A stretch of DNA of 55,284 nucleotides from Chitinophagaceae bacterium (GTDB lineage: Bacteria > Bacteroidota > Bacteroidia > Chitinophagales > Chitinophagaceae), in contig JAICXX010000019.1 in assembly GCA_025934485.1 (NCBI GenBank), forward strand, positions 1-55,284. Reading direction: 5' to 3'. Numbering within the stretch: position 1 is the stretch's first letter; each line of letters begins with the position of its first letter. Positions 17,346-50,167 of this stretch are shown here, one piece after another. The translations under genes and the position numbers were made by a program. The notes beneath the pieces are model-generated. The model ran no database searches. It had not been told where the DNA came from and worked only from the letters and a program-made list of their open reading frames with translations.

Positions 17346-17346
17346 A

Positions 17347-23641: not shown

Positions 23642-24052
23642 ATGTCCCCCGAAATAAAAAAACCATCGAATCCCTGCTGGCACCAGGACAGCGCCACCTG
23701 CAACAAGAACCTCGCAGCCGTACGCGACTCACTCTACGTCATCGGCGGCAAATGGAAGATGCCCATCATCATCGCGCTCATAGAGGGCCCGCGGCGTTTC
23801 CGCGAGCTGCAGCGCTCGCTCGAAGGCGTCACCCCCAAAGTGTTGTCGAAAGAATTAAAAGAGTTGGAATTAAATTCCTTTGTCGTCCGCACCGTCTATG
23901 ACACCACACCGGTAACCGTGGAATACCGGCTTACGGAATATAGCCTGACCCTCCGGCCGGTGCTCGACGCCTTGCGCAACTGGGGCGAGCAGCATCGCGA
24001 ACACATCCGCGCCCAGGCGAAGGCGAGCCGTAAGACTACACTCCCCAAATAA
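23642..24052 (+). CDS. HxlR-family transcriptional regulator
   Basis: A 136-residue winged-helix regulator. The core CNKNLAAVRDSLYVIGGKWKMPIIIAL (about 20-46) contains the conserved Cys and GGKWxxxIL segment; RFRELQRSLEGVTPKVLSKELKELE is the recognition region. The N-terminal Cys residues (CWHQDSATCNKN) could sense quinones or electrophiles, as in YodB-type members; this is inferred. The gene is divergent from azoR and overlaps the downstream oxidase by 17 bp tail to tail. Confidence 0.93.
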   Translation: MSPEIKKPSNPCWHQDSATCNKNLAAVRDSLYVIGGKWKMPIIIALIEGPRRFRELQRSLEGVTPKVLSKELKELELNSFVVRTVYDTTPVTVEYRLTEYSLTLRPVLDALRNWGEQHREHIRAQAKASRKTTLPK

Positions 24053-25382: not shown

Positions 25383-25458
25383 ATGGCGTCGTTGGGCTTC
25401 CAAGTTAAGGATTTATTGTGTATCTTAACAGAGCTAGCCATGCCGCCGGCACAGAGGT

Positions 25459-32112: not shown

Positions 32113-32144
32113 CCTTCCTCGCGGCCCACCTTGCCCCAAAAACT

Positions 32145-32221
32145 TTCGTTTATTTTCGTTTTATTTACTATTTTCGATCTTTCGAAAGCAAACAAAGCTT
32201 CGTTTACCATCGTTTATTTAC
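32145..32221. promoter_or_regulatory. Probable DeoR operator: two composite direct repeats
   Basis: Two long related elements, at 32145-32168 and 32199-32221, 54 bp apart. Each reads TTCGTTTA, a short spacer, TCGTTT and (T)ATTTAC. Between them is the 10-bp palindrome CTTTCGAAAG at 32179-32188. They occupy the AT-rich gap just upstream of the DeoR gene. Repeated TTCGTTT-type sites are what DeoR/GlpR regulators bind, so autoregulation of the whole operon is likely. Confidence 0.6.
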
Positions 32222-32226
32222 GCTCA

Positions 32227-32991
32227 ATGTTACCTAACCATCGGAGAGACAAGATCTTAGAACTTTTGAAGGAGGACGGCTCGGCGAAAGTGGCCGATCT
32301 CGCGAAACTCTTCAAAGTCACCGAAGTCACCATCCGCCAGGACCTCGAAAAGATGGAAAGGGACGGCATGCTCACCCGCGAACATGGCGGCGCCTATCTG
32401 AAGAATATCGAAGCCCAGGTCAAAAGTTTCGAGCTCAGCCACCGGGACAACCTCGACAAAAAAGAACGCATCGCCACCAAATGTCTCGAATACATCGAAA
32501 GCGGCGACAGCATCATCCTCGACAGTGGCTCGACGACCACGGAGATCGCGAAAAAGCTCAAAGGCTTTAAAGACCTCACTGTGATCACCAACGCGCTGAA
32601 CATCGCCATGATGCTGGGCACCGAACCCGGCATCAACCTCATCGTCACCGGCGGCGAGTTCAAGCCGCCTACCCTGTCCCTCACCGGTCAGAAAGCCGCG
32701 GATTTCTTCACCGGCATCAACGTACAAAAACTGTTTCTCGCCACCGCCGGATTGAGCCTCAAGGCAGGTCTCACCTACCCGAGCATCAGCGATATCGTCG
32801 TCAAGAAGGCAATGATCGAAGCCGCCGAGACCACCTATCTCGTGGCCGATTCCACCAAGATCGGGAAAAGCTCCTTCGCCAGCCTGGGGGCGCTGTCGCT
32901 GATCAATTATGTGATCACCGACCCCGGTATCAGCGAACGCGATAAACGCATTTTTGAAGACAACGAGATCGAACTGATCCTCGCCATTTAA
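32227..32991 (+). CDS. DeoR/GlpR-family sugar-operon repressor
   Basis: A 254-residue regulator. The N-terminal winged helix (about 1-60; RRDKILELLKEDGSAKVADLAKLF, TIRQDLEKMERDGML) is followed by a DeoR C-terminal sugar-phosphate-sensing domain (LDSGSTTTEIAKKL, VITNALNIAMML, DSTKIGKSSF). The start at 32227 gives the standard MLPNHRRDKI; the frame extends to 32131 into the operator region. It heads the operon and probably responds to a phosphorylated intermediate of the pathway encoded behind it. Confidence 0.93.
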   Translation: MLPNHRRDKILELLKEDGSAKVADLAKLFKVTEVTIRQDLEKMERDGMLTREHGGAYLKNIEAQVKSFELSHRDNLDKKERIATKCLEYIESGDSIILDSGSTTTEIAKKLKGFKDLTVITNALNIAMMLGTEPGINLIVTGGEFKPPTLSLTGQKAADFFTGINVQKLFLATAGLSLKAGLTYPSISDIVVKKAMIEAAETTYLVADSTKIGKSSFASLGALSLINYVITDPGISERDKRIFEDNEIELILAI

Positions 32992-33004
32992 AAAATAGAC
33001 CAAC

Positions 33005-34414
33005 ATGAAGCAAAAGGCAAGTTTAGGAGTCATCATCGGCAATCGCGATTTCTTTCCGGACAAGCTGGTTTCGGAAGCACGTGCGGACATCCTTACACAA
33101 TTTGAAAAGCTCGGACTAAATGCCATCCTCCTCGAAGAAACCGATACAAAGCTAGGCGGCGTGGAAACATTCGCTGACGTCCGCAAATGTGCCGCGCTGT
33201 TCAGCAAACACGCCGCGGAAATCGTCGGCATCCTCGTCATTCTCCCCAACTTCGGTGATGAAAAAGGTGTCGCCGAGACCATCAAGCTCTCCGGCCTCAA
33301 CGTCCCGGTGCTTATCCAGGCCTATCCCGACGAGCTCAATAAGCTCGACGTGGCCCGGCGCCGCGACTCCTGGTGCGGCAAGATCTCCGTTTGCAATAAC
33401 CTGTATCAATTCGGTATCAAGTATACGCTCACCGGCAAACACGTGATCCATCCGAAAGACCCGGCATTCGAAACCGAGCTCAAAGACTTCGTCGCCGTAT
33501 GCCGTGTCGTGCGCGGGCTGCGTAAAGTCCGTATCGGCGCCGTGGGAGCCCGCCCCGGTGCTTTCAACACCGTCAGGTACAGCGAAAAGATCCTTCAGCG
33601 CAACGGCATCTCCGTGACCACTGTCGATCTCTCCGAGATTCTCGGCCGCGCAAATAAGCTGACCAAAGACGACTCGCCTGTAAAAGCGCATCTCGACAAG
33701 ATCCTGTCGTATGCCCCCAAAGGCAAGACACCTAACGAGGCCATGCTCCAGATCGCCAAGCTCGACGTCGTGCTCAACCAGTTCATGGAAGAGAACTATC
33801 TCGACGCCACCGCCATCCAGTGCTGGACCTCGCTCCAACAGAATTATGGTTGCAATGTCTGCACCAGCATGAGCATGATGAGCGAGAACATGCTGCCCAG
33901 CGCCTGCGAGGTCGATGTGACCGGAACCCTCAGCATGTATGCCATGCAGCTGGCCTCGGGCTCGCCCAGCGCCCTTGTCGACTGGAACAACAACTATGCC
34001 GACGACGACACGAAATGCGTCCTTTTTCATTGCGGCAACTGGGCCAAATCGTTTTTACCCGATATCCAGATCAGCAACGCGCCCATCCTCGGCACCACCG
34101 TGGGCGTAGAAAATACCTATGGCGCGCTCGACGGCCGTACCCCCGCCAACCCGCTTACGTATGGCCGTATCAGCACCGACGATCCGCGCGGCGTCATCAA
34201 GGCTTATGTCGGTGAAGGCGTCCTGACGGATGATCCGCTAAACACCTTTGGCAACCGCGCCGTCGCACAGATCCCGGGTCTGCAGGGCCTCATGCAGTAC
34301 GTTTGCCGCAACGGCTTCGAACACCATGTCGTGATGAATGCCTCGAAGACCGCACGCATCCTCGAGGAAGCCCTCGGCAACTACATGGGCTGGGAAGTGT
34401 ACAATCATAAATAG
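33005..34414 (+). CDS. L-fucose/L-arabinose isomerase-family sugar isomerase
   Basis: A 469-residue protein of the FucI/AraA superfamily (COG2407 type). Visible parts are the N-terminal Rossmann-like domain, IGAVGARPGAFNTVRYSEKIL, the TAIQCWTSLQQNYGCNVCTSMSMMSE segment with the first metal Glu and VDVTGTLSMYAMQLASG with the second metal Asp, then a C-terminal H in CLFHCGNW-type context (VLFHCGNWA). It would interconvert an aldose and a ketose. With the transketolase and FGGY kinase in the operon, an unusual branched or deoxy pentose (for example D-apiose) is a candidate; L-fucose is not excluded. Confidence 0.8.
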   Translation: MKQKASLGVIIGNRDFFPDKLVSEARADILTQFEKLGLNAILLEETDTKLGGVETFADVRKCAALFSKHAAEIVGILVILPNFGDEKGVAETIKLSGLNVPVLIQAYPDELNKLDVARRRDSWCGKISVCNNLYQFGIKYTLTGKHVIHPKDPAFETELKDFVAVCRVVRGLRKVRIGAVGARPGAFNTVRYSEKILQRNGISVTTVDLSEILGRANKLTKDDSPVKAHLDKILSYAPKGKTPNEAMLQIAKLDVVLNQFMEENYLDATAIQCWTSLQQNYGCNVCTSMSMMSENMLPSACEVDVTGTLSMYAMQLASGSPSALVDWNNNYADDDTKCVLFHCGNWAKSFLPDIQISNAPILGTTVGVENTYGALDGRTPANPLTYGRISTDDPRGVIKAYVGEGVLTDDPLNTFGNRAVAQIPGLQGLMQYVCRNGFEHHVVMNASKTARILEEALGNYMGWEVYNHK

Positions 34415-34420
34415 CAAGAA

Positions 34421-35239
34421 ATGACGGACAAAGAACTCGCCCAAAGATCGAATCACTACCGGCAAAACATCCTGAAATACATCGTCAAGGCGGGCGCGGG
34501 CCACACCGGCGGAAGCCTGAGCTGTATCGATATCCTCAACGTCCTCTATAACCATACCCTTAATGTGAGCCCGGAGAATTTCCGCTCGCCCGACCGCGAC
34601 CGTTATATCCAAAGCAAGGGTCATTGTGTGGAAGCACTTTTCGTAGTGCTGGCGGATAAAGGGTTCTTCCCCGAGTCGGATCTGAATACGCTCTGCCGCT
34701 ACCGGTCGCATTACATCGGTCATCCCACGCGCAAGGTCAATGGCGTGGAACAAAACACCGGGGCCCTGGGTCACGGCCTGCCGATCGCCGCCGGCACGGC
34801 GCTCGCCGCCAAAATGGACAAAAAGGCGTATCGTGTTTTTACGTTGATGGGCGACGGCGAATTGCCCGAAGGGTCGAATTGGGAGGCCGCTCTTACCGCC
34901 GCGCACTACAAGCTCGATAACCTCTGCGCGATCATCGACAAGAACACCCTGCAGATCTCCGGTCCCACCGCCGACGTCTGTAACACGGACCCTATCGATG
35001 AAAAATTTAAGAGTTTTGGCTGGGCCGTCACGCATGTCGACGGGCACGATCTACAGGCGCTGCAGACCACCTTCGACCGCCTGCCCTTCGAGAAAGGCAA
35101 GCCCAGCCTCGTGATCGCCCATACCGTGAAGGGCAAGGGCATTAGCTATATGGAGAATGTGCTGAGCTGGCATCATGGGGTACCAAACCAGGAACAATAT
35201 GCGCTCGCCCTCCAAGAATTGGGTGAGACTGTCCTTTAA
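34421..35239 (+). CDS. Transketolase, N-terminal (TPP-binding) subunit
   Basis: A 272-residue split-transketolase subunit. The ThDP motif begins at LMGDGELPEGSNWEAAL and ends with the Asn of IIDKN, about 30 residues later. The N-terminal AGHTGGSLSCIDIL and ALGHGLPIAAGTALAAK segments are typical. It pairs with the next gene to make one active enzyme. The closest described function with this layout in sugar operons is apulose-4-phosphate transketolase (AptA); this is inference from context. Confidence 0.9.
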   Translation: MTDKELAQRSNHYRQNILKYIVKAGAGHTGGSLSCIDILNVLYNHTLNVSPENFRSPDRDRYIQSKGHCVEALFVVLADKGFFPESDLNTLCRYRSHYIGHPTRKVNGVEQNTGALGHGLPIAAGTALAAKMDKKAYRVFTLMGDGELPEGSNWEAALTAAHYKLDNLCAIIDKNTLQISGPTADVCNTDPIDEKFKSFGWAVTHVDGHDLQALQTTFDRLPFEKGKPSLVIAHTVKGKGISYMENVLSWHHGVPNQEQYALALQELGETVL

Positions 35240-35251
35240 AAAATACTATAC

Positions 35252-36220
35252 ATGGCAAGTGTCGTTGTAGAAAGCAAACCAGGGGCAAAGCCCAATCTTG
35301 AAGTCTTCTCCGCCACGCTGCAGGAGCTGGCGACAACCGATCGGGACATCGTCGTCGTGACCAGTGACTCCCGCGGCTCGGGAAAACTGGTCCCTTTCGG
35401 CAAGAAATTTCCGGAGCAGATCGTCGAGATCGGTATTGCCGAACAGAACCTCGTAGGTGTAGCCGCCGGTCTGGCCTCCGCAGGGAAGAAGACCTTCGCC
35501 GTATCGCCCGCCTGTTTCCTCACGGCCCGGGCGCTCGAACAAATAAAGAACGACGTCGCCTACAGCGATAACCCGGTTAAGCTCATCGGCATCAGCGCGG
35601 GCGTCAGCTATGGCGCACTGGGTTCCACCCACCATAGCCTGCACGACTTTGCCGCCTTGAGAGCCATCAACAACCTGATCGTCGCCGCCCCGGCCGACAA
35701 TTTCGAAACCGAAGAAGCGATCAGACAGGCCGCGGCTATGACGCACCCGATCTATCTCCGTTTTGGAAAAAAGAACATGCCGCTGCTCACCACCGACCCT
35801 AATAATGGCTTTCGGTTTGGGAAAGGACGCGTCATCAGCCGGGGGCCTGATCTCGCCTTCATCGCGACCGGTGAGACGGTACAGCCTGCGCTCGAAGCCG
35901 CAGCCACTTTACGCGCGGAACACGGCATCGAGGCTACCGTGATCAGCATGCATACGATAAAACCGCTCGACACTACCCTGCTGCGCGAGGTAGCAGCCGA
36001 AACAGCCGCGATCATCACCGTGGAAGAACACAGCGTTTACGGGGGACTCGGTGAAGCCTGCGCCTCGTATCTGTTGCAGTATGGGTATGGTAAGCCGTTC
36101 CGCATCGTAGGTATTCCCGATGAATACACCGTCACGGGTTCGCAGAACGAGATCTTCAACCACTATGGCATCTCCGGCGAAGGCCTCACCACCACCGCGC
36201 TCGACTTGTTAGGTAAATAG
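35252..36220 (+). CDS. Transketolase, C-terminal subunit
   Basis: A 322-residue subunit with the pyrimidine-binding domain (about 15-175; [27 protein letters not shown], carrying the catalytic Glu in IAEQN) and the transketolase C-terminal domain (about 190-310; [25 protein letters not shown]). It starts 12 nt after its partner. Together they transfer a two-carbon unit between sugar phosphates. Counterpart of AptB if the operon acts on D-apiose. Confidence 0.9.
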
Positions 36221-36227
36221 CATAGCC

Positions 36228-37166
36228 ATGAAAAAATTAACGATTGCCCTGGTATCCATGATTTTGCTCGCGGGCTGTGGAACACGCGACGGCAACGGGC
36301 AGCCCAAAAAGATCGCCATCGTCGTCTCGACGCTCAACAACCCCTGGTTTGTCTTCCTCGCCCAAACGGCGGCAGCCAAGGCAAAGGCCCTGGGCTACGA
36401 ATCGAAGATCTTCGACTCGCAAAACAATACCGCGCTGGAAAGCGATCATTTTGAGAATGCCATCGCCTCCGGCTATAATGCCATCCTCTTCAACCCCACC
36501 GACGCCAAAGGTTCCGTGATCAACGTGAAAAAAGCTAAAGACGCCGGCATCCCCGTTTTCTGCATGGATCGCGAGATCGACTCGCGTGACGCCGCGACCT
36601 CGCAGATCCTCTCCGACAGCTACTCCGGCTGTATCGACCTCGGTAAGCTCTTCGTCAAGGCACTCAACAAAAAGGGGAATTACGTCGAGCTCCTCGGCAT
36701 CGTCTCCGACGACAATACCTGGAACCGCTCGAAAGGTTTTCACAGTGTCGTCGACAATTACCCGCACCTAAAAATGGTCGCACAACAAAGCGCCGATTTC
36801 GACCGGAACAAGGCCATGGAGGTCATGGAATCGATCCTTCAGGCCCATCCGGATATCGACGGGGTGTTTGCGGGCAATGATGCCATGGCCATGGGCGCCT
36901 GGCAGGCGCTGACTGCCGCGGGACTCGCAGGTAAGATCAAGGTCATCGGCTTCGACGGTGCGGAAGACGCCATCAACTCGATCAAAGAAGGGAAGCTAAC
37001 GGCCACCGCCATGCAATTTCCCAAAACCATCGCCGAGCTGGCGGCCACCGACGCGGACGAATACTTCAAAGGAAAACGCGACTTCCCCCATAAGCTGCCC
37101 ATCCCCGTGGATGTGGTCAGCGCTACCAACATCGATAAATATACCGCTTACGGAAAAAAGAATTAA
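36228..37166 (+). CDS. Ribose-type ABC transporter substrate-binding lipoprotein
   Basis: A 312-residue periplasmic binding protein of the RbsB type (Peripla_BP_4). An N-terminal lipobox LLAGC (Cys at about 18) marks a lipoprotein. [50 protein letters not shown] and [15 protein letters not shown] are the family blocks. It captures a sugar for the ABC importer encoded downstream. Confidence 0.93.
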
Positions 37167-37169
37167 CCT

Positions 37170-37790
37170 ATGAGCAAACCGATAAGATATGTTTTGGTCG
37201 CCGCCGCGATCGCGCTCGTGGGCTATAATTCGATCTACTTCCGGAAACTGAGCGATGTCCGCAATGCCGAAAAAGCGCTGGACTTCGATGCCAAAGCGTA
37301 TGCGCTACGATTTCTCGACACCACCCTGCCGGCACATCCGGACAAGGCCATCGCCCTGCCGCTGCTGGCTCAAACGCTGACCGCCGATCCTGCCAAAGCC
37401 TTCTCCTGGTCGCATGCCCAAAACAATGGCAACAACCGTTTCTTTCTGGTCAAAGGCTCCGGCAAGCTCACTGCTATCGACTCCGAATACGCTTATCTTG
37501 CCGTCGAAGGCGTTCCGCAAAAGGTAGCGTTGGCGACAAGATACATCATCGGTACCGCTGCCCGGGATGGATCAGGTCTGATCTCCGTGAATGAATTCAC
37601 GACGACCATGGACATGAACACCGTCTCTGAAGAGCTCAACAGACTCATCCGGAGCCGGGTCCTGCCGCCGTTCAAAGCGGCCGCGAAACCCGGAGAAACG
37701 GTGCAGTTCACCGGTGGTCTCGAGCTGCAGCAAAATGCCGCGGCGCCTGATACGCTGGAAGTAACCCCGATGATCCTAAAAATTCAATAA
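37170..37790 (+). CDS. DUF2291-family protein
   Basis: A 206-residue protein with one N-terminal membrane anchor (about 5-22) and a soluble outer domain, including YSEYAYLAVEGVPQKVALATRYI-like text (positions about 105-130) and GLISVNEFTTTMDMNTVSEELNR. DUF2291 proteins are commonly encoded inside ribose-type ABC operons of Bacteroidota and Proteobacteria and are thought to assist the transporter; the mechanism is unknown. It sits between the binding protein and the ATPase genes. Confidence 0.85.
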   Translation: MSKPIRYVLVAAAIALVGYNSIYFRKLSDVRNAEKALDFDAKAYALRFLDTTLPAHPDKAIALPLLAQTLTADPAKAFSWSHAQNNGNNRFFLVKGSGKLTAIDSEYAYLAVEGVPQKVALATRYIIGTAARDGSGLISVNEFTTTMDMNTVSEELNRLIRSRVLPPFKAAAKPGETVQFTGGLELQQNAAAPDTLEVTPMILKIQ

Positions 37791-37807
37791 CCATAAAAAA
37801 CGCGCCT

Positions 37808-39307
37808 TTGCTAGTTGCAGAAAAGATCGGAAAACGCTTTACCGGAGTCATCGCCCTCCAGGACGTGTCGATGCAATTGCGACCGGGGCGGGTCACGGCT
37901 ATCATTGGCGAGAATGGTGCGGGCAAATCCACCCTGATGAAGATCCTTTCGGGTGTATACGCCGAATACGAAGGTCGTATCCTGCTCAACGGCGCCGAGG
38001 TCCGGTTTGCCAATCCCAAAGAAGCGCAGGAAAAAGGCATCTCCATCATCCACCAGGAACTCAACCTGATCCCCGATCTCTCGATCACCGAAAACATCTT
38101 CCTCGGCCGGGAGCTCACGGACCGCTGGGGCCTCCTGAATAAAAAAGCCATGCGCGAACGCACAGCTCTTCTATTGCAGCGGCTCAAGCTGAATGTCTCC
38201 GCGGACATTTTGGTACGCGACCTCAAAGTAGGCCAGCAGCAGGTGATAGAGATCGCCAAGGCCCTTCTCCTGGAATCACAGGTCATCATCATGGACGAAC
38301 CCACCTCGGCCATCAGCGAAGCCGAAGTGGAGATCCTATTCGGCATCATCGAACAGCTTCGCGCCGAAGGGAAGATCATCGCCTATATCTCCCACAAGCT
38401 GGATGAGCTGTTCCGCATTGCCGACGACTTCGTGGTATTGCGCGATGGCCAGGTCACCGAAACGGGTACCATGAAAGGCATAGACCATGACGCCATCGTC
38501 CGCAAAATGGTGGGCCGCGACATCGCCAGGCTGGAACATAACCGGGCACCGGCCGACGCTGCGGAAGATTTGCTCTCGGTGGCTGCGTTGAGCTGGCACG
38601 CTGGCAATAAACAGCTCCTGAAGAACATCAGCTTCTCGCTCCGGCGGGGTGAGGTACTCGGCATCTTTGGGCTCATGGGCGCAGGCCGTACCGAACTCCT
38701 CGAATGCATCCTCGGCCTCCACGCGGGCGAACACACCGGCGACATGCGCTTGAACGGTGTTTCGCTCGATGTTCGATCGCCCCGGGATGCCATCCGCGCC
38801 GGTCTCGTACTCGTTCCCGAAGACCGAAAGAAAGATGGTCTTATCCCCGGCCTCGACGTCAAAACCAACATCAGCCTCAGCATCCTTCGTTCCCTCGGCC
38901 GCAATGGTCTGTTGAATAACCAGGCCGAGCGTTCGTTGGCGGAGCATTACAAAGACTCGCTCCGCATCAAGACGCCCAACCTCGAACAGCAGGTGCGGCA
39001 TCTCAGCGGCGGCAACCAGCAAAAGGTTATCCTCGCGCGCTGCCTGGCCACCAACCCCAAGGTCCTGATGCTCGACGAGCCCACCCGCGGGATCGACGTC
39101 AACGCCAAGAACGAGATCTACAAGCTGATCCTCGAGCTCGCCGAAAGCGGACTGGGGATCATCGTCGTCTCCTCCGAACTGCCCGAGATCCTCACCGTGA
39201 GCGATCGCATCCTCGTCCTCTGTGAAGGCAAGATCAGCGGTACCTTCCCGCGAGCCACTGCGGGCGAAGACGATATCCTGAAAGCCGCCATCCCAAAAAC
39301 GATATAA
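37808..39307 (+). CDS. Sugar ABC transporter ATP-binding protein (RbsA-like)
   Basis: A 499-residue ATPase with two ABC domains. The first has Walker A GENGAGKST, a degenerate signature LKVGQQQVIEIAKAL and Walker B VIIMDEPT; the second has an altered Walker A (GLMGAGRTE) and the signature LSGGNQQKVILARC with LMLDEPTRGID. This asymmetry is normal for RbsA/XylG. The first codon is TTG at 37808; the frame has no ATG near the N-terminal LVAEKIGKRFTGV, so a TTG start is assigned. Confidence 0.92.
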   Translation: MLVAEKIGKRFTGVIALQDVSMQLRPGRVTAIIGENGAGKSTLMKILSGVYAEYEGRILLNGAEVRFANPKEAQEKGISIIHQELNLIPDLSITENIFLGRELTDRWGLLNKKAMRERTALLLQRLKLNVSADILVRDLKVGQQQVIEIAKALLLESQVIIMDEPTSAISEAEVEILFGIIEQLRAEGKIIAYISHKLDELFRIADDFVVLRDGQVTETGTMKGIDHDAIVRKMVGRDIARLEHNRAPADAAEDLLSVAALSWHAGNKQLLKNISFSLRRGEVLGIFGLMGAGRTELLECILGLHAGEHTGDMRLNGVSLDVRSPRDAIRAGLVLVPEDRKKDGLIPGLDVKTNISLSILRSLGRNGLLNNQAERSLAEHYKDSLRIKTPNLEQQVRHLSGGNQQKVILARCLATNPKVLMLDEPTRGIDVNAKNEIYKLILELAESGLGIIVVSSELPEILTVSDRILVLCEGKISGTFPRATAGEDDILKAAIPKTI

Positions 39308-39319
39308 ACGATATAAACA

Positions 39320-40300
39320 ATGCCCATGGGTCTGTCCAACTATCGCGCCTCACTTACCCGGTTCCAGAGCTTCATCGCGCTGCTGATCCTCTGTATAGCG
39401 CTGAGTCTGCTATCGAATAAATTTCTGACGATCGAAAATGGATGGAATGTGCTGCGGCAGATCTCGGTGAATGTCTGCATCTCGGTGGGCATGACCCTGG
39501 TGGTGCTGACTGCCGGCATCGATCTTTCGGTGGGTTCCATACTCGCCTTTAGCGGTGCCGTCGCGGCGGGTTTGCTGAAGAACGGCATTCCGTGGCCGGC
39601 GCATGACCTTTTCATCGGGTTCACCTTATTAGGCACCATCGTTGCCGCTTTGATCGTCGGCGCCGCTTTGGGTTTTTTCAACGGCTGGATGATCACCCGG
39701 TTCAAAGTGCCCCCCTTCGTGGCCACGCTTGCCATGCTCACCATCGCCCGCGGCCTCACCATGCTATCGACCAAAGGCTATCCCATCTCCAGCCTCGGCA
39801 GCAAATTCGATTTTATCGGCAGCGGCTGGCTGCTCGGCATCCCGGTCCTCGTTTGGATCTCGGCCGTCACGGTGATCCTTGCTGTGGTGCTCGTTCGCAA
39901 AACACCGCTCGGCCGGTATATCTATGCGATCGGCGGGAACGAACAGGCAGCGCGTCTCTCCGGCATTCACATCAATCGGGTGAAAATTATCGTGTATACC
40001 ATCGGCGGAATACTCGCGGCGGTAGGCGGGATCATGGTCACCAGCCGGCTGGATTCTGCGCAACCCAATGCTGGCACCAACTATGAGCTCGACTCCATCG
40101 CGGCCGTAGTCATCGGCGGCACCTCGCTTTCCGGCGGACGCGGCACCATCATGGGCACCGTCCTCGGCGCTATCATCATCGGGGTGCTGAACAACGGACT
40201 GGTTTTATTGGATGTTTCGCCCTTTTGGCAACAGGTGATCAAAGGCCTCGTAATTTTATTGTCGGTGATCGTAGACAAAATGAATTCCCAAGAAGCATGA
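39320..40300 (+). CDS. Sugar ABC transporter permease (RbsC-like)
   Basis: A 326-residue BPD_transp_2 permease with about 8-10 membrane segments. MTLVVLTAGIDLSVGSILAFSGAVAAGLL and the EAA-like region GNEQAARLSGIHINRVKIIVYTIGGILAAVGGI are diagnostic. Its TGA overlaps the ATG of the kinase gene (ATGA), indicating coupled translation. MGLSNYR at 39326 is an alternative start. Confidence 0.93.
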   Translation: MPMGLSNYRASLTRFQSFIALLILCIALSLLSNKFLTIENGWNVLRQISVNVCISVGMTLVVLTAGIDLSVGSILAFSGAVAAGLLKNGIPWPAHDLFIGFTLLGTIVAALIVGAALGFFNGWMITRFKVPPFVATLAMLTIARGLTMLSTKGYPISSLGSKFDFIGSGWLLGIPVLVWISAVTVILAVVLVRKTPLGRYIYAIGGNEQAARLSGIHINRVKIIVYTIGGILAAVGGIMVTSRLDSAQPNAGTNYELDSIAAVVIGGTSLSGGRGTIMGTVLGAIIIGVLNNGLVLLDVSPFWQQVIKGLVILLSVIVDKMNSQEA

Positions 40301-41778
40301 ACTATATCTTAGGCATCGACCAGGGCACCAGCGGAACCAAGGCATTGCTGTTCGACACGCAGGGAAAACCCGTAGCCAAAGGCTCCGAGACGTTGAAGAC
40401 ATTCTATCTCGAGAACGGTCATGTCGAACAGGAACCCGACTCTATTGTGGAGAACGTACTGGCCGCCGTCGGCAAATGTCTCGATGCGTTCGTTCGGTCT
40501 GGCGGCCGGCTCGAGGAGATCCGCGCCTGCGGCATCTCTAACCAACGCGAGACCTTTGTGATTTGGGACGCTTCGGGTAAGCCCTTGTACAACGCTGTCG
40601 TCTGGCAGTGCAAACGCTCGGTGAATATTTGCGGGCGCTGGCGTGCTGCCGGATACCTGGACTTGATCCGCGCGCGAACCGGCTTGCTGATCGATCCTTA
40701 TTTTTCTGGCTCGAAGCTCGTTTGGCTTTATGAGAACAATGCTGCCGTGCGTCGTGCGATCGATGCGGGTGAGGCTTTCTTCGGCACGGTCGACACCTGG
40801 CTGCTATACCGGCTCACCGGTGGTACGAGCTACCATACCGATTATACTAACGCATCCCGGACGCTGTTCTTTAATCTCAAAGAATTGCAGTGGGATCGCG
40901 AACTGTTGGAGGTCTTTGGTCTCTCTCGTCTCCGGCTGGCTGAGCCCAAACCCTCTTCGGGGTCTTTCGGTCACACCGATTTTAACGGTTTGTTGCCTGC
41001 GGCTATTCCCATTACCGGCATGATCGGCGATTCTCATGCGGCAGCCTTTGGCGAAGGCTGTTTCTCCCCCGGCGAAGCCAAGGCGACGCTCGGCACGGGC
41101 TGCTCGATCCTCATGAACACGGGTCCTGTATGTATGGATTCGCGTAATGGGATGGTCTCGACCATCTGTTGGAGCACGGCGGATACGGTCCACTATGCGC
41201 TGGAAGGCGTCATCGTCACCTGTGGCGCGACGCTGGAATGGATAAAGAATGAATTGGGCTTATTTACGGATAGCAGGATCACCGAAGAAATGGCGGGGGC
41301 GGTAAAGGACAACGGCGGCGTATACCTGATCCCAGCTTTCAGCGGCCTCGGCGCGCCGCATTGGCAAATGGACCGAAAGGCTTCGATCAGCGGTCTGACC
41401 TTTGGCTCTTCGAGGAATCATATCGTTCGTGCGGCGCTCGAATCGATCCCCTTCTCGATCAAGGACGTCATTGTGGCGATGGAAGCGGATACGGCGTTGC
41501 CCCTGACAAAACTCATGGTCGACGGTGGTATCTCCGCCAATACCTTCGTCACCCAATTTCTCGCCGACCTGCTCGGGAAAGACGTCGTCACCATCGGTCA
41601 GCCCGACATCTCCGCCCTCGGCGCCGCTTATATGTCGGGTCTCAGCGTCGGCGTCTATCCGTCGATCGCCCATCTGCGTTTACTAAACACCGAGAAAAAG
41701 ACCCGCATCCCCACACCCGGCAACAAGACCGCGGCGTACTACCAGGGTTGGCAGCGGGCACTGCGATTGGGCTTGTGA
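40297..41778 (+). CDS. FGGY-family carbohydrate kinase
   Basis: A 493-residue sugar kinase with the two FGGY domains. The first phosphate loop is LGIDQGTSGTKALLFD; SNQRETFVIWD and the C-terminal LMVDGGISANTFVTQFLADLLGKDV block follow. It is nearest to the glycerol kinase/xylulokinase branch. In this operon it would phosphorylate the ketose made by the isomerase before transketolase cleavage, which is the role of apulose kinase in the D-apiose pathway. Its end lies 4 bp from the end of the opposing operon. Confidence 0.9.
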   Translation: MNYILGIDQGTSGTKALLFDTQGKPVAKGSETLKTFYLENGHVEQEPDSIVENVLAAVGKCLDAFVRSGGRLEEIRACGISNQRETFVIWDASGKPLYNAVVWQCKRSVNICGRWRAAGYLDLIRARTGLLIDPYFSGSKLVWLYENNAAVRRAIDAGEAFFGTVDTWLLYRLTGGTSYHTDYTNASRTLFFNLKELQWDRELLEVFGLSRLRLAEPKPSSGSFGHTDFNGLLPAAIPITGMIGDSHAAAFGEGCFSPGEAKATLGTGCSILMNTGPVCMDSRNGMVSTICWSTADTVHYALEGVIVTCGATLEWIKNELGLFTDSRITEEMAGAVKDNGGVYLIPAFSGLGAPHWQMDRKASISGLTFGSSRNHIVRAALESIPFSIKDVIVAMEADTALPLTKLMVDGGISANTFVTQFLADLLGKDVVTIGQPDISALGAAYMSGLSVGVYPSIAHLRLLNTEKKTRIPTPGNKTAAYYQGWQRALRLGL

Positions 41779-41782
41779 CCGC

Positions 41783-43054
41783 TCAGATGTTGGATGCTTC
41801 CGCGGGCAGCGGCTCCTCGACAACGTCCTCTTCGGCGGGGCGGTTGCGCCAATAATTCGCGAGGATCGACCCCGAGATATTCATCCATGGGCTAAAGACT
41901 GCCGCCGCCAGACCGACCGTCCCCAGTTTACCCATGCTGCCGGCCAAACCCGAGGCCATGCCGCCATTTTGCAACCCGACCTCGAACGCCACCGTCCGCG
42001 CGGCATTCTTATCCAGCTTGAATAATCGACTCAGCCAATAGCCAAAGAAATAGCCTGCCGCATTGTGGATCACCGAAGCAAGGAACAACAAGAGACCCAC
42101 ATGCAATAAGTTGTCCCGTCCGGCCGCCGTCGTCACCGTCGTGAAATAAACGATCCCCGCCATCGAGATATACGGCATGATCCGCTCTACCTTGGGAGCA
42201 CGCCGAACCAGGTAATGATAACCGATTCCCACGAGGATAGCCCCGGCGAAAAATCCGCTGACATCGTTTCCGATCCCACTCGCAACAACCACCAGCCAGA
42301 CCGCCGCTGCAACACCCGCCGCCATCACCCATCGCCGGCCCCGTGGGGATGCACCATTGAGATAGTCATGCAGCAGGGCCGCACCGATGGGCACCAGCAC
42401 GATCTTCACGATCTCCAGCATCATAGCGCCAAATCGCACATGGATATACGTTCCCGCCAGCAGCTTCATCAGCAGCGGCGTAAAAAATGGCGCGGCCAGC
42501 GTAGCCATCGCAGTAACGGCGACGCTTAGGGTCAGGTTTGCCCGCGCGATATACACCATGACATTCGAAGCCAGACCGCTCGAACAGGAGCCGATGAGGA
42601 TGATGCCCGCCGCGATCTCCGGGTCAAAATGAAAGACGCGCGTCAGCAGATACCCGGTGAGCGGCATCACGGAGAAGTGGCATGCCAGCCCGATGAGCAC
42701 GCCTTTGCCGGTGCTCCCCAGGCCCGTAAAATCCCGCAGCCGCATCTGCGTTCCCATACCGAACATCACGAGCTGGACGACGATCAGTACCAGCCATTTG
42801 TTACGCAGATCGATGGAGCCCCAATGCGAAAAGGAGGCGGGATACAACATCCCCGCTACCACCGCCGCGATGATCCACGCCGTATATTGGTAGCCGGCGA
42901 GACGTGGAACCGCACCCATGCCAATGGCCAGGCATACGCTAAGCGCCAGCGCCGCGGGCTGCCAGAGCCCGCTGTTCCGCAGGCCCAGCTCAGCCAGCAA
43001 TACCAGCAGGGCGATGCCGCTGCATCCCAAACAGATCTTTCGGAAGCTTGGCAT
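41783..43054 (-). CDS. BASS-family organic anion/sodium symporter
   Basis: A 423-residue membrane protein of the bile acid:sodium symporter family, with about ten membrane helices. FGMGTQMRLRDFTG, the GIILIGSCSSGLASNVMVYIA crossover motif and the C-terminal RTVAFEVGLQNGGMASGL motif are typical. Members carry bile acids, pantothenate, pyruvate or other carboxylates. As the last gene of the RuBisCO-like operon it may import the sugar-acid substrate; that is inference. It begins 3 nt after the racemase-fold gene. Confidence 0.9.
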   Translation of the reverse strand: MPSFRKICLGCSGIALLVLLAELGLRNSGLWQPAALALSVCLAIGMGAVPRLAGYQYTAWIIAAVVAGMLYPASFSHWGSIDLRNKWLVLIVVQLVMFGMGTQMRLRDFTGLGSTGKGVLIGLACHFSVMPLTGYLLTRVFHFDPEIAAGIILIGSCSSGLASNVMVYIARANLTLSVAVTAMATLAAPFFTPLLMKLLAGTYIHVRFGAMMLEIVKIVLVPIGAALLHDYLNGASPRGRRWVMAAGVAAAVWLVVVASGIGNDVSGFFAGAILVGIGYHYLVRRAPKVERIMPYISMAGIVYFTTVTTAAGRDNLLHVGLLLFLASVIHNAAGYFFGYWLSRLFKLDKNAARTVAFEVGLQNGGMASGLAGSMGKLGTVGLAAAVFSPWMNISGSILANYWRNRPAEEDVVEEPLPAEASNI

Positions 43055-43057
43055 AAG

Positions 43058-43714
43058 CTATAAAACTTGTTGCAGATATGCTATCGCCGTGGGCGGGCTC
43101 GCCAGGATGGGCACGCGTCTGTCGGCCTCGGGCAGCGCCTCTACCACCCGCGCCATAGATGCCTGTGCAAGGACGATCACATCCACCTGTGCGGACAATT
43201 CTTTTAAGGCCGCTGCCACCATTTGGTCATGCTTCGCGGGATCGCCGCCCATGAGCGCCTCGAAAGCGCCTTCGCATAATCTTGCCGTTAGCTCGATGTG
43301 CTTGCCGGCTACCGCCGCCCTGCGTCTGACGAGGTCACTGGTAGGCGCGAGCGTCGTGGGCAGCGTAGCGATCACGCCTATCTTTTTGCCTTTGGCGACG
43401 GCGAGATCGGCCATGGGCTGGTCTACACGAAGCACCGGGACGCGCGTTAGCTGGGCCGAAGCCTCGACCGCCGCCCCGATGGACGAGCAGGTCACCAGGA
43501 TATAATCCGCCCCGGCATTTTCCGCGGAGCCTACATAATCGACGACCCGCCGCGCGGTCTGCGCCGTCAGTTCTCCCTTGCGGATCACGTCGGCGATCAG
43601 GCTGTCGTCGACGATGTTGAATACTTTCACTCCCGGCAGCGCCTTGCTGGTCAGCTGCTGGAACACCGGCACCAGTGTCGCGGAGGTGTGTATGAGGCCC
43701 AATGTCTTTTGCAT
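43058..43714 (-). CDS. Asp/Glu-racemase-fold protein with one catalytic Cys
   Basis: A 218-residue member of the aspartate/glutamate/hydantoin racemase superfamily. The first catalytic position is Cys76 in YILVTCSSIGAAVEAS; the second motif, normally LGC, reads VLAQASMARV with Gln184 where the second Cys should be. Loss of one Cys is expected in family members that do not racemise, such as decarboxylases or isomerases. The start MQKTLGLIHTSATL is typical; the longer frame is shadow. It sits between the DUF1537 kinase and BASS genes. Confidence 0.85.
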   Translation of the reverse strand: MQKTLGLIHTSATLVPVFQQLTSKALPGVKVFNIVDDSLIADVIRKGELTAQTARRVVDYVGSAENAGADYILVTCSSIGAAVEASAQLTRVPVLRVDQPMADLAVAKGKKIGVIATLPTTLAPTSDLVRRRAAVAGKHIELTARLCEGAFEALMGGDPAKHDQMVAAALKELSAQVDVIVLAQASMARVVEALPEADRRVPILASPPTAIAYLQQVL

Positions 43715-43722
43715 ATCGGATG

Positions 43723-45171
43723 TTATTTTTTTCCTGCTAATAATTTTCCAAAATAGTCTTCGGCGCCCACCTGGCCACCCTTGAGGTTGATCTCCAGTCC
43801 ATCTACGGGTGAGCCCGGCGCATGTGCGCGGCAAAGCGGCGCACCCGGTATGAGCGGACAGATCATTTCCACCGCTTCGATGCCCAATGCCCGCGCGGCA
43901 TAGCTCGACGTGTCCCCGCCAGCGATCACCAGCCGGCGTAAACCGCGGCTCGCTCCCGAGGGCTGCGTCGTGGGGCCGGTCCCATCCGCGCTCCGTGCTT
44001 CGGCAACAATGCTTTTCACCAGTCTTCCCAACCCCGTCCCGAGCAACGCGGCCGGCGTCGACCCCGCAAGCGTATGCCCCGTGTGCAGGATCACACTGCG
44101 CCCTTCGGCAAGATAGCTAACGCCCGCTTGCACGATCGCCCGAAAGTCGTCCCTGTCGCCCCCGCCGGGAACCCCCGCGCTCCCCCACTCGCCCATCGCG
44201 GCAGCATCCAGCGCGATCTCCGCAAACCCATTTTCACGCGCCCAGATGATCTGCCCCGCCGTCACCGGCGAACAAGACCCCGAGGCCACCAGCAACGGTT
44301 CGGCACGGCCGGCCTCCGGCCATTCCTCAACAGGTGTGAGTCGGCCCACACCTCGCCAGTGATCCCCCAGCGCCATCTCCACCGCCGAAGAGCCCACCGT
44401 GAACAGCGGCTGCTCCGGCGAGCCGTATCCAGCCAGCAGCTCACCGATGCCGGCGAGCTGCGAAGTATACAAGACATCGATCAGAGTCACCGCCGAAGCC
44501 TCTAACACGGCACGTCGCTCGATCAGGCTTTGTTCCAGCCCAAGGATATCCAGCAGCCCGATCGCCCGCGCGGTCTGGCGGCCAAGATGTACCCGCAGAT
44601 CCGCTTCGTCGGCGGGCGTCACCGGGTGCTTGCTCATCGACGGATGGCGGTCCAGCCGGTAGATGTTTCCCCCGCTGCCGATACCCATGCGGGCGTAGAG
44701 ATTGCCAAAGACGCAATAACGACCCAGCGCCGGCGCGCCGCCCAACACGGGGACGAACCGCGAGCGAAAGACTTCTGCGCCGATATCGATGGCCCGCCCG
44801 ATCGAACCCGTCCTTGGCGAGGAATCGAATGTAGAGCAAACTTTGTAATGGATATGCGGCACCCGCAGGCTGGCCAGCATGGCAAAGGCCGGGCGCAACA
44901 CCGCTTCCATCTCTTCGGTTGTCATGGCGCGCGTCATACCCGCAATGCCTATCGCATCCAGATCGGGATACCGCTGAAGCTGCGCCGCCTCCGGCGGCTC
45001 CAGGAACAGCACCGTCCGCGCGCCGGCCCGGCTGAGGAATTCGAGGGCGTCAGTCGAGCCCGTGAAGTCGTCGCCATAGAATGCCAGCAGCAACCGCTCG
45101 CGGTCCCGGCTCGAATTCGTACCGCCTCCCGCGCCTTGCTGGCGGCCCTCAAGCGCGTCCTGGTTGCTCAT
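43723..45171 (-). CDS. Four-carbon acid sugar kinase family protein (DUF1537)
   Basis: A 482-residue kinase of the OtnK/DtnK/OiaK group. The N-terminal substrate domain begins LLLAFYGDDFTGSTDALEFL (about 26-45), and the C-terminal nucleotide domain has VIAGGDTSSYAARALGIEA and the final GGQVGAEDYFGKLL. These enzymes phosphorylate 3-oxo acid sugars. Paired with a RuBisCO-like protein, the closest known role is 3-oxo-isoapionate kinase. The ATG at 45171 overlaps the preceding stop (ATGA), so the two are translationally coupled. Confidence 0.88.
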   Translation of the reverse strand: MSNQDALEGRQQGAGGGTNSSRDRERLLLAFYGDDFTGSTDALEFLSRAGARTVLFLEPPEAAQLQRYPDLDAIGIAGMTRAMTTEEMEAVLRPAFAMLASLRVPHIHYKVCSTFDSSPRTGSIGRAIDIGAEVFRSRFVPVLGGAPALGRYCVFGNLYARMGIGSGGNIYRLDRHPSMSKHPVTPADEADLRVHLGRQTARAIGLLDILGLEQSLIERRAVLEASAVTLIDVLYTSQLAGIGELLAGYGSPEQPLFTVGSSAVEMALGDHWRGVGRLTPVEEWPEAGRAEPLLVASGSCSPVTAGQIIWARENGFAEIALDAAAMGEWGSAGVPGGGDRDDFRAIVQAGVSYLAEGRSVILHTGHTLAGSTPAALLGTGLGRLVKSIVAEARSADGTGPTTQPSGASRGLRRLVIAGGDTSSYAARALGIEAVEMICPLIPGAPLCRAHAPGSPVDGLEINLKGGQVGAEDYFGKLLAGKK

Positions 45172-46415
45172 TTGCTTCCAAATTTTTGTACTGATTTTCC
45201 AAAGGCAGGAAATTTTTTTGCGCCTTCTTCGACCGAAAGCCCTTCGACGGCGGCCTGCCATGCTTCACGCAAGGCGGTGACACCACCCGCAGGTCCATCC
45301 GGATGGGCCATGATGCCACCACCCGCCATATACAGCAGATCTACCGTCCTGGTGCGCCGGTAGGTTTCAGGCGCCTGTCCGCCCCATTGCCCCGAAGATA
45401 CCACGGGCAGAATGGAATAGCCGCCGAGGAAGGGTGTGAGGCACGCTTCAATGGACCGAACTACCGAGTCATCGGACTCCCAGAATTTGTTTTGGATGCC
45501 GTTGACATGGATCTGGTCGACACCCGCGAGCCGCCATATTTTTTGATATGCGGGGAACTCGATCCCCAGCAATGGATGGCGGTTGAGCATTCCCCAGCCA
45601 TTACGATGGCCATGGATCGGCAAGGTCCGCAGATCGCCCAGCTTTTTGACGCCGGAAAGTCCCACGCTATTGAGGCTCACCATCGCGCAGGTGGCCCCGG
45701 CCTTGACAAGGGTTTCATACCGCCGCAGCATCGTGTCCATCTCGGCGCTGAGGTTGAAGGCATACATTATTTTTTTGCCGGTCTTATCGGCGTGGTCGTT
45801 GATCACCTTCATGACTGCCGTGACCCGGTCTTCAAAAGAAGAGTTGGCGGCCGCCGAAAGCAATTCGTCGTCTTTGATGAAATCGATGCCCGCACCCGCC
45901 AGCGTTTGTACGAGCTCCGCCGTTTGCCGCGGTGTCATGCCGATGCTGGGCTTGATAATGGTTCCGATGAGCGGACGCCCCTGCACCCCGGTGAGCCGCC
46001 GGCACCCTTCGATACCAAAAGCCGGCCCCGCGAAATGCTGTGCAAAGGAAGCCGGGATCTCGAGGTCCATCAGCTTCAGGCCGGTAAAGGCGCTAAGTTC
46101 ATACAGATTGCCCTGTACCGTGGAGATCAGCACTGGAAGGTTATAACCACAATTTTCGATGGACCAGGAGATTTCGATGGCCGCCCGGTGAAACGGCCCC
46201 TTTTGAAAACCCGCTCCACCCGGGATAGCGGGTATGTCGACGGTCTCCAGGTGTTTTACCGATTCCACACGCGCCGCAAAACGAGCCTTCAGCTCTTCGG
46301 TCTCACCCGGCACGGCGACAAAGGTCCCCGAACTCTGCTCTCCTGCCAGGATCGCTGCCGCCGCTTCGGGCTGCAACGGCGTTTCTATGTAATACCGGGC
46401 GACAATTCGTTCCAT
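45168..46415 (-). CDS. RuBisCO-like protein (form IV)
   Basis: A 415-residue RuBisCO large-subunit homologue. Lys155 in GTIIKPSIGM and the metal site Lys181-Asp-Asp183-Glu184 in DFIKDDE are retained. The loop-6 Lys that orients CO2 in true RuBisCO is absent (VVSSGQWGGQ), so it is not a carbon-fixing enzyme. With the DUF1537 kinase it matches the pair that acts on 3-oxo-isoapionate-4-phosphate (transcarboxylase/hydrolase or decarboxylase). It is the first gene of a four-gene operon. Confidence 0.88.
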   Translation of the reverse strand: MERIVARYYIETPLQPEAAAAILAGEQSSGTFVAVPGETEELKARFAARVESVKHLETVDIPAIPGGAGFQKGPFHRAAIEISWSIENCGYNLPVLISTVQGNLYELSAFTGLKLMDLEIPASFAQHFAGPAFGIEGCRRLTGVQGRPLIGTIIKPSIGMTPRQTAELVQTLAGAGIDFIKDDELLSAAANSSFEDRVTAVMKVINDHADKTGKKIMYAFNLSAEMDTMLRRYETLVKAGATCAMVSLNSVGLSGVKKLGDLRTLPIHGHRNGWGMLNRHPLLGIEFPAYQKIWRLAGVDQIHVNGIQNKFWESDDSVVRSIEACLTPFLGGYSILPVVSSGQWGGQAPETYRRTRTVDLLYMAGGGIMAHPDGPAGGVTALREAWQAAVEGLSVEEGAKKFPAFGKSVQKFGSK

Positions 46416-47841: not shown

Positions 47842-49209
47842 ATGAAGAAACATCTCGCACTCGCTGCATTGCTCTATGTGTCCGCCCAAACCTCCTTCGC
47901 TCAAACCTACACCCCTTCTCCGCAGAACGAAAAGGCCCGCGAATGGTTTACCAACGCCAAGTTCGGGTTGTTTATTCACTGGGGCCCCTTCAGTATCCCC
48001 GGCGACGGCGAATGGGTGATGAACAACCGCAACATCACGGTCAAGAACTATACGCGGCTGGAGAAATTCTTCAACCCCATCGATTTCGACGCGCATACCT
48101 GGGTGGCCCTGGCCAAGTCCGCGGGCATGAAATACATCACCCTCATCACCCGCCATCACGACGGCTTCAGCATGTGGGACACCAAATACTCCGACTTCAA
48201 CATTATGCATACGCCCTATAAAAAGGACATCGTCCGGATGATGGCCGATGAGTGTCACAAGCAGGGTATCAAGCTCTTCTTGTATTATTCGCTGCTCGAC
48301 TGGCGGCGCGACGACTATTCCTGGTGGACGGGCCGCACGGGCCAGGGTACCGGCCGTACCGTTCATGGCGACTGGAACCACTATATCCAATTCATGAAAA
48401 ACCAGCTTACCGAGCTGCTCACCAACTACGGCTCCATCGCCGGTATCTGGTTTGACGGTTATTGGGACCAAATGGCGGAAGAAAGTAAAGACCGCAAAGA
48501 CAACGACGTCCGCGTGGACTGGCATATCCGTGAGATCTACGACCTGATCCATAAACTTCAGCCGCAATGTCTCATCGGCAATAACCATCATATGACCCCG
48601 CTCCCCGGTGAGGATTTCCAGATGTTCGAGCAGGATGTCCCCGGCGAGAACACCAGCGGGTTGAGCTTCCAGAAGATCTCGGCCCTGCCGCTGGAAACCT
48701 GCGCCACCATCAACAACTCCTGGGGCTTTAACATCACCGACACGACCTACAAAACGCCGGCACAGCTTGTCGGCCTGCTCGTCAAATCGGCCGGCAATGG
48801 CGGCAACCTCCTGCTCAACATCGGGCCCATGCCTAACGGCGAGATCCAGCCGGAATTCATCGAGCGTCTCCACTGGATGGGTCACTGGCTCGAGACCTAC
48901 GGCCCCGCCATCTACCATACCAAAGGCGGTTATCTCCGGCCACAGAAATGGGGTTGTCTCACGCTCGGCGAAGGCGACGATGGCGACAAGCAAGGCGCAG
49001 GAGGTGAAAAACTATACGTCCACGTCTTAAAGCAAAATGCCGGCACCATCCGTCTCGAGCAGTTCCCCTACGCAACCATCAAAAAAGCTTACATGCTGAA
49101 AGACAGATCCCCCGTCACCGTCACCTTGCACGACGACGTCGCAGAGATCCCCGCCCAGTCGCCTACCGCCGACGATCCGGACCGGGTCGTGGTGTTGGAG
49201 GTCAAATAA
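47842..49209 (+). CDS. Alpha-L-fucosidase, GH29
   Basis: A 455-residue secreted hydrolase with a signal peptide (about 1-21, ending SFAQ). The GH29 blocks are FGLFIHWGPFSIPGDGEW, LITRHHDGFSMWDTKYSDFN and AGIWFDGYW, in which the Asp is the nucleophile. NSWGFN and GNLLLNIGPM...G follow. It releases terminal fucose (or related sugars) from glycans in the periplasm or outside. It is convergent with an AraC regulator and is near, but not part of, the isomerase/transketolase locus. Confidence 0.93.
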   Translation: MKKHLALAALLYVSAQTSFAQTYTPSPQNEKAREWFTNAKFGLFIHWGPFSIPGDGEWVMNNRNITVKNYTRLEKFFNPIDFDAHTWVALAKSAGMKYITLITRHHDGFSMWDTKYSDFNIMHTPYKKDIVRMMADECHKQGIKLFLYYSLLDWRRDDYSWWTGRTGQGTGRTVHGDWNHYIQFMKNQLTELLTNYGSIAGIWFDGYWDQMAEESKDRKDNDVRVDWHIREIYDLIHKLQPQCLIGNNHHMTPLPGEDFQMFEQDVPGENTSGLSFQKISALPLETCATINNSWGFNITDTTYKTPAQLVGLLVKSAGNGGNLLLNIGPMPNGEIQPEFIERLHWMGHWLETYGPAIYHTKGGYLRPQKWGCLTLGEGDDGDKQGAGGEKLYVHVLKQNAGTIRLEQFPYATIKKAYMLKDRSPVTVTLHDDVAEIPAQSPTADDPDRVVVLEVK

Positions 49210-49222
49210 GGCATCCTTAAGC

Positions 49223-50119: not shown

Positions 50120-50125
50120 GTTCCG

Positions 50126-50133
50126 CAAAGGTA
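50126..50133 (-). promoter_or_regulatory. -7 box of the AraC gene (TACCTTTG)
   Basis: A perfect TAnnTTTG on the minus strand, ending 6 nt before the ATG at 50119. Confidence 0.5.
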
Positions 50134-50167
50134 TCGATTCGGAATTTTGCCTTTTAAAAAAAAGCAA

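Follow-up and report, generated by a model that had tools for sequence, protein, structure and literature searches.

The 55,284-nt stretch analysed here (the window; contig JAICXX010000019.1 of assembly GCA_025934485.1, from a Chitinophagaceae bacterium) carries 13 open genes that form two convergent operons, nine genes on the + strand and four on the - strand, with stop codons 4 bases apart. With a probability of roughly 55%, these operons serve two branched sugars of the plant polysaccharide rhamnogalacturonan II (RG-II), D-apiose being used via a transketolase (+ operon) and aceric acid via a RuBisCO-like protein (RLP; - operon). This reading builds on gene content, conservation, co-occurrence and residue sets, all observed directly, from which substrates, step order and the isomerising enzyme are inferred. 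An earlier note on this DNA had proposed one expanded apiose/apionate pathway; the locus probably represents two pathways instead, each for a different branched sugar of the same polymer. The genes named in that note are all present and open (isomerase, FGGY kinase, split transketolase and ABC importer on the + strand; RLP, DUF1537 kinase and BASS carrier on the - strand), together with a PF01177 gene that its reasoning did not mention. Start and stop codons overlap between RLP and DUF1537 kinase in the - operon and between permease and FGGY kinase in the + operon. The genes are as follows:

32227..32991 (+): DeoR-family regulator of the + operon (Pfam DeoRC, 166 bits), ATG at 32227
33005..34414 (+): aldose-ketose isomerase with arabinose/fucose isomerase fold (PF02952, 93.5 bits), proposed D-apiose isomerase
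34421..35239 (+): N-terminal half of a split transketolase (PF00456, 147 bits)
35252..36220 (+): C-terminal half of the transketolase (PF02779 and PF02780), below the cut-off of the NCBIfam transketolase models
36228..37166 (+): sugar-binding lipoprotein of an ABC importer (PF13407, 204 bits)
37170..37790 (+): DUF2291 protein of the importer operon (PF10054, 135 bits)
37808..39307 (+): double ATPase of the ABC importer (PF00005 twice), below the cut-off of the xylose/arabinose/ribose ATPase models
39320..40300 (+): permease of the ABC importer (PF02653, 165 bits)
40297..41778 (+): glycerol-kinase-like FGGY kinase, ATG at 40297 overlapping the permease stop, proposed apulose kinase
41783..43054 (-): BASS-family carrier (PF01758, 116 bits; PanS model 213 bits, cut-off 400), proposed importer of an anionic sugar
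43058..43714 (-): Asp/Glu-racemase-family protein (PF01177, 88 bits) carrying a single catalytic-type Cys, proposed to be the isomerase of the - operon
43723..45171 (-): OiaK-like DUF1537 acid-sugar kinase (PF07005/PF17042), ATG overlapping the RLP stop
45168..46415 (-): RLP (PF00016, 210 bits)

Conservation of the - operon and its association with GH127

Scanning a species-level genome collection with the RLP yielded at least 574 relatives, from which the 80 best loci were taken forward. RLP, DUF1537 kinase, PF01177 protein and BASS carrier occur together in 69 of these 80 loci, which span Bacteroidota, Balneolota (L047) and Verrucomicrobiota. One locus (L011), in which no RLP frame was called, was then dropped and the counts below refer to the remaining 79. 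For the + operon, neighbours within 10 kb were counted in 18 loci of relatives having an isomerase at least 70% identical to that of the window; all nine genes recur in 9 of them, some of the others being truncated where a contig or the fetched sequence ends. Since the gene sets recur together in relatives, neither operon is a chance grouping. Genes of the Gfo/Idh/MocA and SSF families were rejected as RLP partners, as they were also found in two genomes (G306 and G321) in which the family search found no RLP.

The neighbours of the RLP loci were clustered and their representatives named using Pfam and PDB. The commonest is a glycoside hydrolase of family 127 (GH127); 36 of the 79 loci have it within 10 kb, and it adjoins the module in 24. 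Its representative matches PDB entry 5mqo with 846 bits, as compared to 415 bits for the next GH127 structure; we take this entry to be BT_1003, a literature search for the code having given no match. Other RG-II-type neighbours are GH141, GH106, a BT_1020-like protein and a rhamnosidase similar to PDB 3cih, presumably BT_1001. In one genome (G150), GH127, the 3cih-like gene and GH141 form a single run, like the BT1001-BT1003 numbering. BT1003 is described as the aceric acid hydrolase of RG-II, an exception among beta-L-arabinofuranosidases (PMC5698469, PMC10850190), while BT1001 is given as a rhamnosidase, BT1002 as a fucosidase and BT1012 as an apiosidase (PMC7939467); PMC12168206 and PMC12282258 provide further background. 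GH127 was found in only 1 of the 18 isomerase loci (p=0.0011, the two sets of loci coming from overlapping genome collections and not being fully independent), and the RLP module is accompanied far more often by this aceric-acid-type GH127 than by GH140 (3/79). Enzyme types of the Bacteroides thetaiotaomicron RG-II system (BT1001, BT1002, BT1003, BT1012 and BT1020) are found around or alongside both modules in relatives; that system, as described, releases RG-II sugars, whereas the present locus would provide the inner catabolism of two of them.

On a Croceibacterium plasmid (L145, 3175-10089), an RLP and a kinase have as neighbours a GDSL esterase, a sialidase-family protein and a protein distantly similar to GH127. 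The last of these was rejected as independent support, as it is at most ca. 29% identical to the aceric-acid-type enzyme and, in most comparisons, no closer to it than to other GH127.

The association extends to whole genomes. In a phylum sample of 247 genomes, the RLP (E 1e-80) occurs in 6 and the aceric-type GH127 (best match of at least 879 bits, a limit that omits four genomes with best matches of 566-671 bits) in 14, all 6 RLP genomes being among the 14; the 18 genomes with GH127 at E 1e-150 still include the same 6. The GH127 query was taken from an RLP locus, in genome G080 (100% match); Fisher tests gave p=1.8e-7 when the window's own genome was left out and p=3.4e-6 when G080 was left out as well. 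In a family sample of 195 genomes, which shares G000, G033 and G150 with the phylum sample, the RLP occurs in 17 and GH127 (E 1e-200, 726-1065 bits) in 36, again including all 17; without the own genome, GH127 is present in 16 of 16 RLP genomes versus 19 of 178 others (p=4e-14). The own genome encodes an aceric-type GH127 on another contig (C332) and a PF13204 (GH140-type) protein, scoring 378 bits, on contig C219.

The RuBisCO-like protein and a possible route for aceric acid

RLPs are described as decarboxylating or transcarboxylating/hydrolysing 3-oxo-isoapionate-4-phosphate (PMC6302742). The earlier note had placed the - operon in this route, and the closest curated models of its RLP and DUF1537 pair are indeed those of OiaX and OiaK. 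However, the RLP reaches 504.8 bits with the OiaX model NF042437 and the kinase 405.2 bits with the OiaK model NF042436, both models having a cut-off of 700 bits; with the form III RuBisCO model TIGR03326, the RLP reaches 229.7 bits (cut-off 497). On NF042437, two annotated OiaX (L137 and L149) score 785 and 777 bits, six other plasmid RLPs 407-473 bits and a Rufibacter member of the window clade 509 bits. In a tree of 37 rows, in which the bootstrap had not settled and outgroups are long, the window clade forms a branch of its own (100/97) that is sister to OiaX (84/98), which places the RLP outside the OiaX clade.

The two groups also differ in their residues. The equivalents of RuBisCO E60, N123 and H327 are kept in 81 of 81 window-clade sequences (the window, the 79 loci and Rufibacter), whereas all seven annotated OiaX, as well as the unannotated L200, have D, G and Q at these positions. 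Overall, the window RLP retains 11 of the 11 RuBisCO residues that were checked, the other eight not separating the groups, and with them the complete set presumed to be needed by an OiaT-type transcarboxylase/hydrolase. At the three discriminating positions, plasmid RLPs linked to an SDR dehydrogenase or to the oxidoisomerase ApnO side with the window clade. The ApnO-linked L139 and L199, which we take as candidates for the 3-oxo-isoapionate-4-phosphate transcarboxylase/hydrolase (OiaT), keep the same 11 residues. On the SDR-type plasmids (L138, L142, L144, L147, L148 and L150), RLP and DUF1537 genes occur with a LysR regulator and a TRAP, MFS or KdgT-type carrier; these pairs are candidates for a further RLP pathway that keeps the RuBisCO residues.

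As pointed out in the earlier note, the lactonase and the oxidoisomerase of the known acid route are missing from the window, and a genome-wide search for the oxidoisomerase using the ApnO copy of G119 as query had no match in any of 20 genomes with a window-type RLP. A rhizobial query found ApnO in one of eight genomes, G119, which had no window-type RLP in the phylum search and in which the gene lies on a 4.2-kb contig, separated by one frame from a PF13204 gene (407 bits). Since G119 also has a window-type isomerase in addition to this contig (L173, G119 C171), both apiose routes may perhaps occur in one genome. In OiaX loci, a gene labelled 'phosphogluconate dehydrogenase C-terminal', presumably ApnO, is in view in four annotated cases (L137, L140, L149 and L195) and not in three others (L196, L197 and L198). 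Triose-phosphate-isomerase/RpiB neighbours were dropped as an OiaX marker, as they are in view in only one of seven annotated OiaX loci (L140), whose gene tables are incomplete. The partners of the window RLP and kinase, a BASS carrier and a racemase-family protein, further set them apart from OiaX/OiaK. With model scores below cut-off, different residues, no ApnO in 20 genomes and GH127 rather than GH140 next door, the RLP and kinase are, judged by these tests, not OiaX and OiaK, and the assignment of the - operon to the 3-oxo-isoapionate route is not supported.

The substrate of OiaX and OiaT is P-O-CH2-CO-C(OH)(COO-)-CH2OH. Aceric acid is 3-C-carboxy-5-deoxy-L-xylose, and its ketose-1-phosphate, P-O-CH2-CO-C(OH)(COO-)-CHOH-CH3, is this same compound with CHOH-CH3 in place of CH2OH. 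In the scheme that we propose, a GH127 of the BT1003 type, the gene for which lies elsewhere in the genome, would free aceric acid in the periplasm and the BASS carrier would bring in its anion; an aldose-ketose step, perhaps performed by the racemase-family protein, would produce HOCH2-CO-C(OH)(COO-)-CHOH-CH3, the CH2OH of which would be phosphorylated by the DUF1537 kinase. The RLP would then act on the resulting beta-keto acid as OiaX and OiaT do on 3-oxo-isoapionate-4-phosphate. OiaT chemistry would give 3-phosphoglycerate and L-lactate, the latter from the L-configured carbon, and OiaX chemistry a 5-deoxy-pentulose-1-phosphate, to be taken over by an aldolase. Given that the RLP has retained RuBisCO residues lost in annotated OiaX, transcarboxylation/hydrolysis is favoured over decarboxylation alone; the RLP would thus use the fuller RuBisCO chemistry, like OiaT, from which its neighbours and proposed substrate distinguish it. 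That the module is a self-contained aceric acid pathway in this full sense, the RLP moving the sugar's own carboxyl and hydrolysing the product to 3-phosphoglycerate and L-lactate after an aldose-ketose step by the racemase-family protein, is a tentative proposal.

The weakest link of this scheme is the racemase-family protein as aldose-ketose isomerase, a role proposed because it is the sole enzyme of the module without another. Its model (mean predicted local distance difference test score, pLDDT, 95.7) fits Asp/Glu racemase structures with a template modelling (TM) score of up to 0.78, and the Cys of its TCSSIG motif is kept in at least 97% of 73 sequences. At the second Cys site of Asp/Glu racemases, as judged by motif, it carries a Gln, in LAQASM.

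It is also conceivable, if rather doubtful, that aceric acid is degraded but the RLP only decarboxylates, a rhamnulose-1-phosphate-type aldolase splitting the 5-deoxy-pentulose-1-phosphate into dihydroxyacetone phosphate (DHAP) and acetaldehyde. Such OiaX-like chemistry would be in line with the class II aldolase domains detected, in frames of ca. 710 residues, in 6 of 6 RLP genomes tested, the copy of G080 lying ca. 19 kb from the RLP. Yet the - module itself has no aldolase, the equivalents of E60, N123 and H327 are kept, unlike in annotated OiaX, and similar frames also exist in G158 and G119, which do not have this RLP; the frames look like the aldolase/dehydrogenase fusion of L-rhamnose use, which also counts against this route.

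That both operons serve D-apiose is unlikely. The - operon would then be a variant 3-oxo-isoapionate route (OiaK, followed by OiaX or OiaT) with a lactonase and an oxidoisomerase of other families, as could be argued from the closest NCBIfam models, from the sister position of OiaX and from the apiose genes next door, which are in line with the RLP module in G411. Because the ApnO-linked L139 and L199 share the 11 residues of the window, an OiaT-type apionate enzyme is possible. Against this, ApnO was found on a small contig with a GH140-type gene in G119 yet in none of the 20 RLP genomes, the neighbour of the RLP is GH127 and not GH140, 6 of the 17 RLP genomes of the family sample do not have the + operon isomerase, and a BASS carrier suits a sugar imported as an anion.

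The + operon and D-apiose

The D-apiose transketolase route reportedly described by Carter et al. in 2018 is said to involve an apiose isomerase, an apulose kinase and the transketolase AptA/AptB. The + operon resembles it in combining isomerase, FGGY kinase, split transketolase and a ribose-type ABC importer in one operon, and in having a GH140 apiosidase beside some relatives. Its isomerase has an arabinose/fucose fold and its kinase is glycerol-kinase-like, the comparison with the known route being one of gene content. In this operon, the ABC importer would take up D-apiose, the isomerase would convert it to apulose, the kinase would phosphorylate the glycerol-like end of apulose, and the split transketolase, in which a GDG...N stretch of the N-terminal half presumably represents a thiamine diphosphate-type motif, would cleave apulose-4-phosphate to DHAP and a pentose phosphate.

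A GH140 protein matching PDB 5msy, which we take to be BT1012, and 8t9w ('Apiosidase') is encoded within 10 kb of the + operon in 3 of the 18 loci (G321, G271 and G359). The context therefore supports D-apiose use by the + operon and backs the D-apiose/apulose-4-phosphate-type route put forward in the earlier note; the window itself has no apiosidase gene. Three further loci (G306, G324 and G396) encode a protein 51-56% identical to a DUF5060/PF13204 protein of Dyadobacter (L046). The L046 protein was rejected as a GH140 and its type counted apart because its only PDB match is 4n0r and not 5msy. When PF13204-type proteins of either kind are considered, they occur in 6 of 18 isomerase loci versus 4 of 79 RLP loci (p=0.0024).

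The FGGY kinase scores 524.7 bits with the broader subfamily model NF000756, above the cut-off of 498, and 521.3 bits with the glycerol kinase model TIGR01311, below its cut-off of 590. The + operon kinase is present as a paralogue of GlpK in 10 of 10 operon genomes tested, with scores (521-573 bits) that do not reach 590, and a separate GlpK above the cut-off is present in 9 of the 10 (exception: G021), while two tested RLP genomes without the + operon have only the GlpK above cut-off and not the paralogue. Placement with glycerol kinase, which the earlier note had regarded as fatal to the apiose reading, is therefore half true of the sequence but not borne out by the context.

The isomerase had no PDB match by sequence at E 0.001; its AlphaFold model, which has a mean pLDDT of 85.9, is similar to L-arabinose isomerase 4r1q (TM 0.81) as well as to L-fucose isomerases. 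The binding protein is closest to a ribose-binding protein (PDB 2fn8, 366 bits, followed by 5ibq, 220 bits), a similarity that was rejected as a test of its ligand because it does not discriminate. A DUF2291 gene also lies beside a ribose-type binding protein in five annotated OiaX loci. In relatives, a DeoR homologue (75-84% identity) adjoins the isomerase gene. Upstream of the DeoR gene of the window, positions 32130-32225 contain recurring TTTCGTTT-like words as well as an imperfect palindrome, a possible operator.

Use of another pentose, such as an arabinose or ribose isomer, with the dedicated transketolase as an accessory, is improbable: a 49%-identical isomerase (L130, in G155) does adjoin ribulokinase and AraD genes and the binding protein is closest to one for ribose, but the operon has neither an epimerase nor a ribulokinase-type kinase, its dedicated split transketolase is conserved, and GH140/PF13204-type neighbours are enriched as given above. 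Isomerases of ca. 50% identity (7 of 12 in the phylum sample), L130 among them, were excluded from the isomerase counts.

Relation of the two operons and significance

The link between the two modules is loose. They lie side by side in the window and in Runella (L020 and L034), and in G411 the RLP module follows the last + operon gene, the kinase, on the same strand after 65 bp. Adjacency is partial in Dyadobacter, where only the kinase gene of the + operon lies beside the RLP module (L044, L046 and L057), and in L081, an Opitutales bin with both isomerase and kinase next to it. In the family sample, the RLP is present in 11 of 16 isomerase genomes (p=1.3e-9 without the own genome, p=0.006 within GH127 genomes only). 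As the modules also occur apart, two pathways are proposed rather than one.

Several points weigh against this proposal. All enzyme activities are deduced from sequence and context. For the - operon, OiaX is the sister clade of the window RLP clade, and the annotated OiaX examined are from a small number of related Alphaproteobacteria. The module genes include no known aldose-ketose isomerase, and a racemase fold carrying out such a step would, to our knowledge, be without precedent. The GH127 query was itself derived from an RLP locus, and the co-occurrence counts and Fisher values ignore shared ancestry. Moreover, 19 of the 36 GH127 genomes of the family sample and 8 of the 14 of the phylum sample have no such RLP, which is therefore not the sole fate of aceric acid. 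Among 30 genomes searched, a PF13204 gene is present in 17 of 17 RLP genomes and in 9 of 9 GH127-positive, RLP-negative ones, so that presence in a genome marks RG-II use as a whole and only adjacency singles out aceric acid. As for the + operon, GH140 adjoins it in just 3 of 18 loci, the strict contrast with the RLP loci (3/79) having p=0.076, and the PF13204 search had no match in two genomes that carry the operon (G158 and G340).

Elsewhere in the window, a GH29 alpha-L-fucosidase and an AraC-type regulator (47842-50167) are encoded just beyond the - operon. Further away are cobalamin-type genes (CobD/CbiB, aminotransferase and CobB/CobQ; 15421-18828), an FAD-linked oxidoreductase of the sugar 1,4-lactone oxidase group (24036-25403) and a terpene synthase family 2 gene (27143-28357).

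Few plant polysaccharides are as complex as RG-II, and enzymes that release its sugars have already been described. In the literature searched, mostly without subscription papers, no account was found of how aceric acid is used after its release, so its breakdown may not have been described before. If the proposal is correct, four genes would be named for this use, and RLPs would gain a new substrate, with near-complete RuBisCO chemistry run for sugar breakdown. The locus would also make it possible to recognise, from their genomes, bacteria that can use both of the branched sugars of RG-II, apiose and aceric acid.

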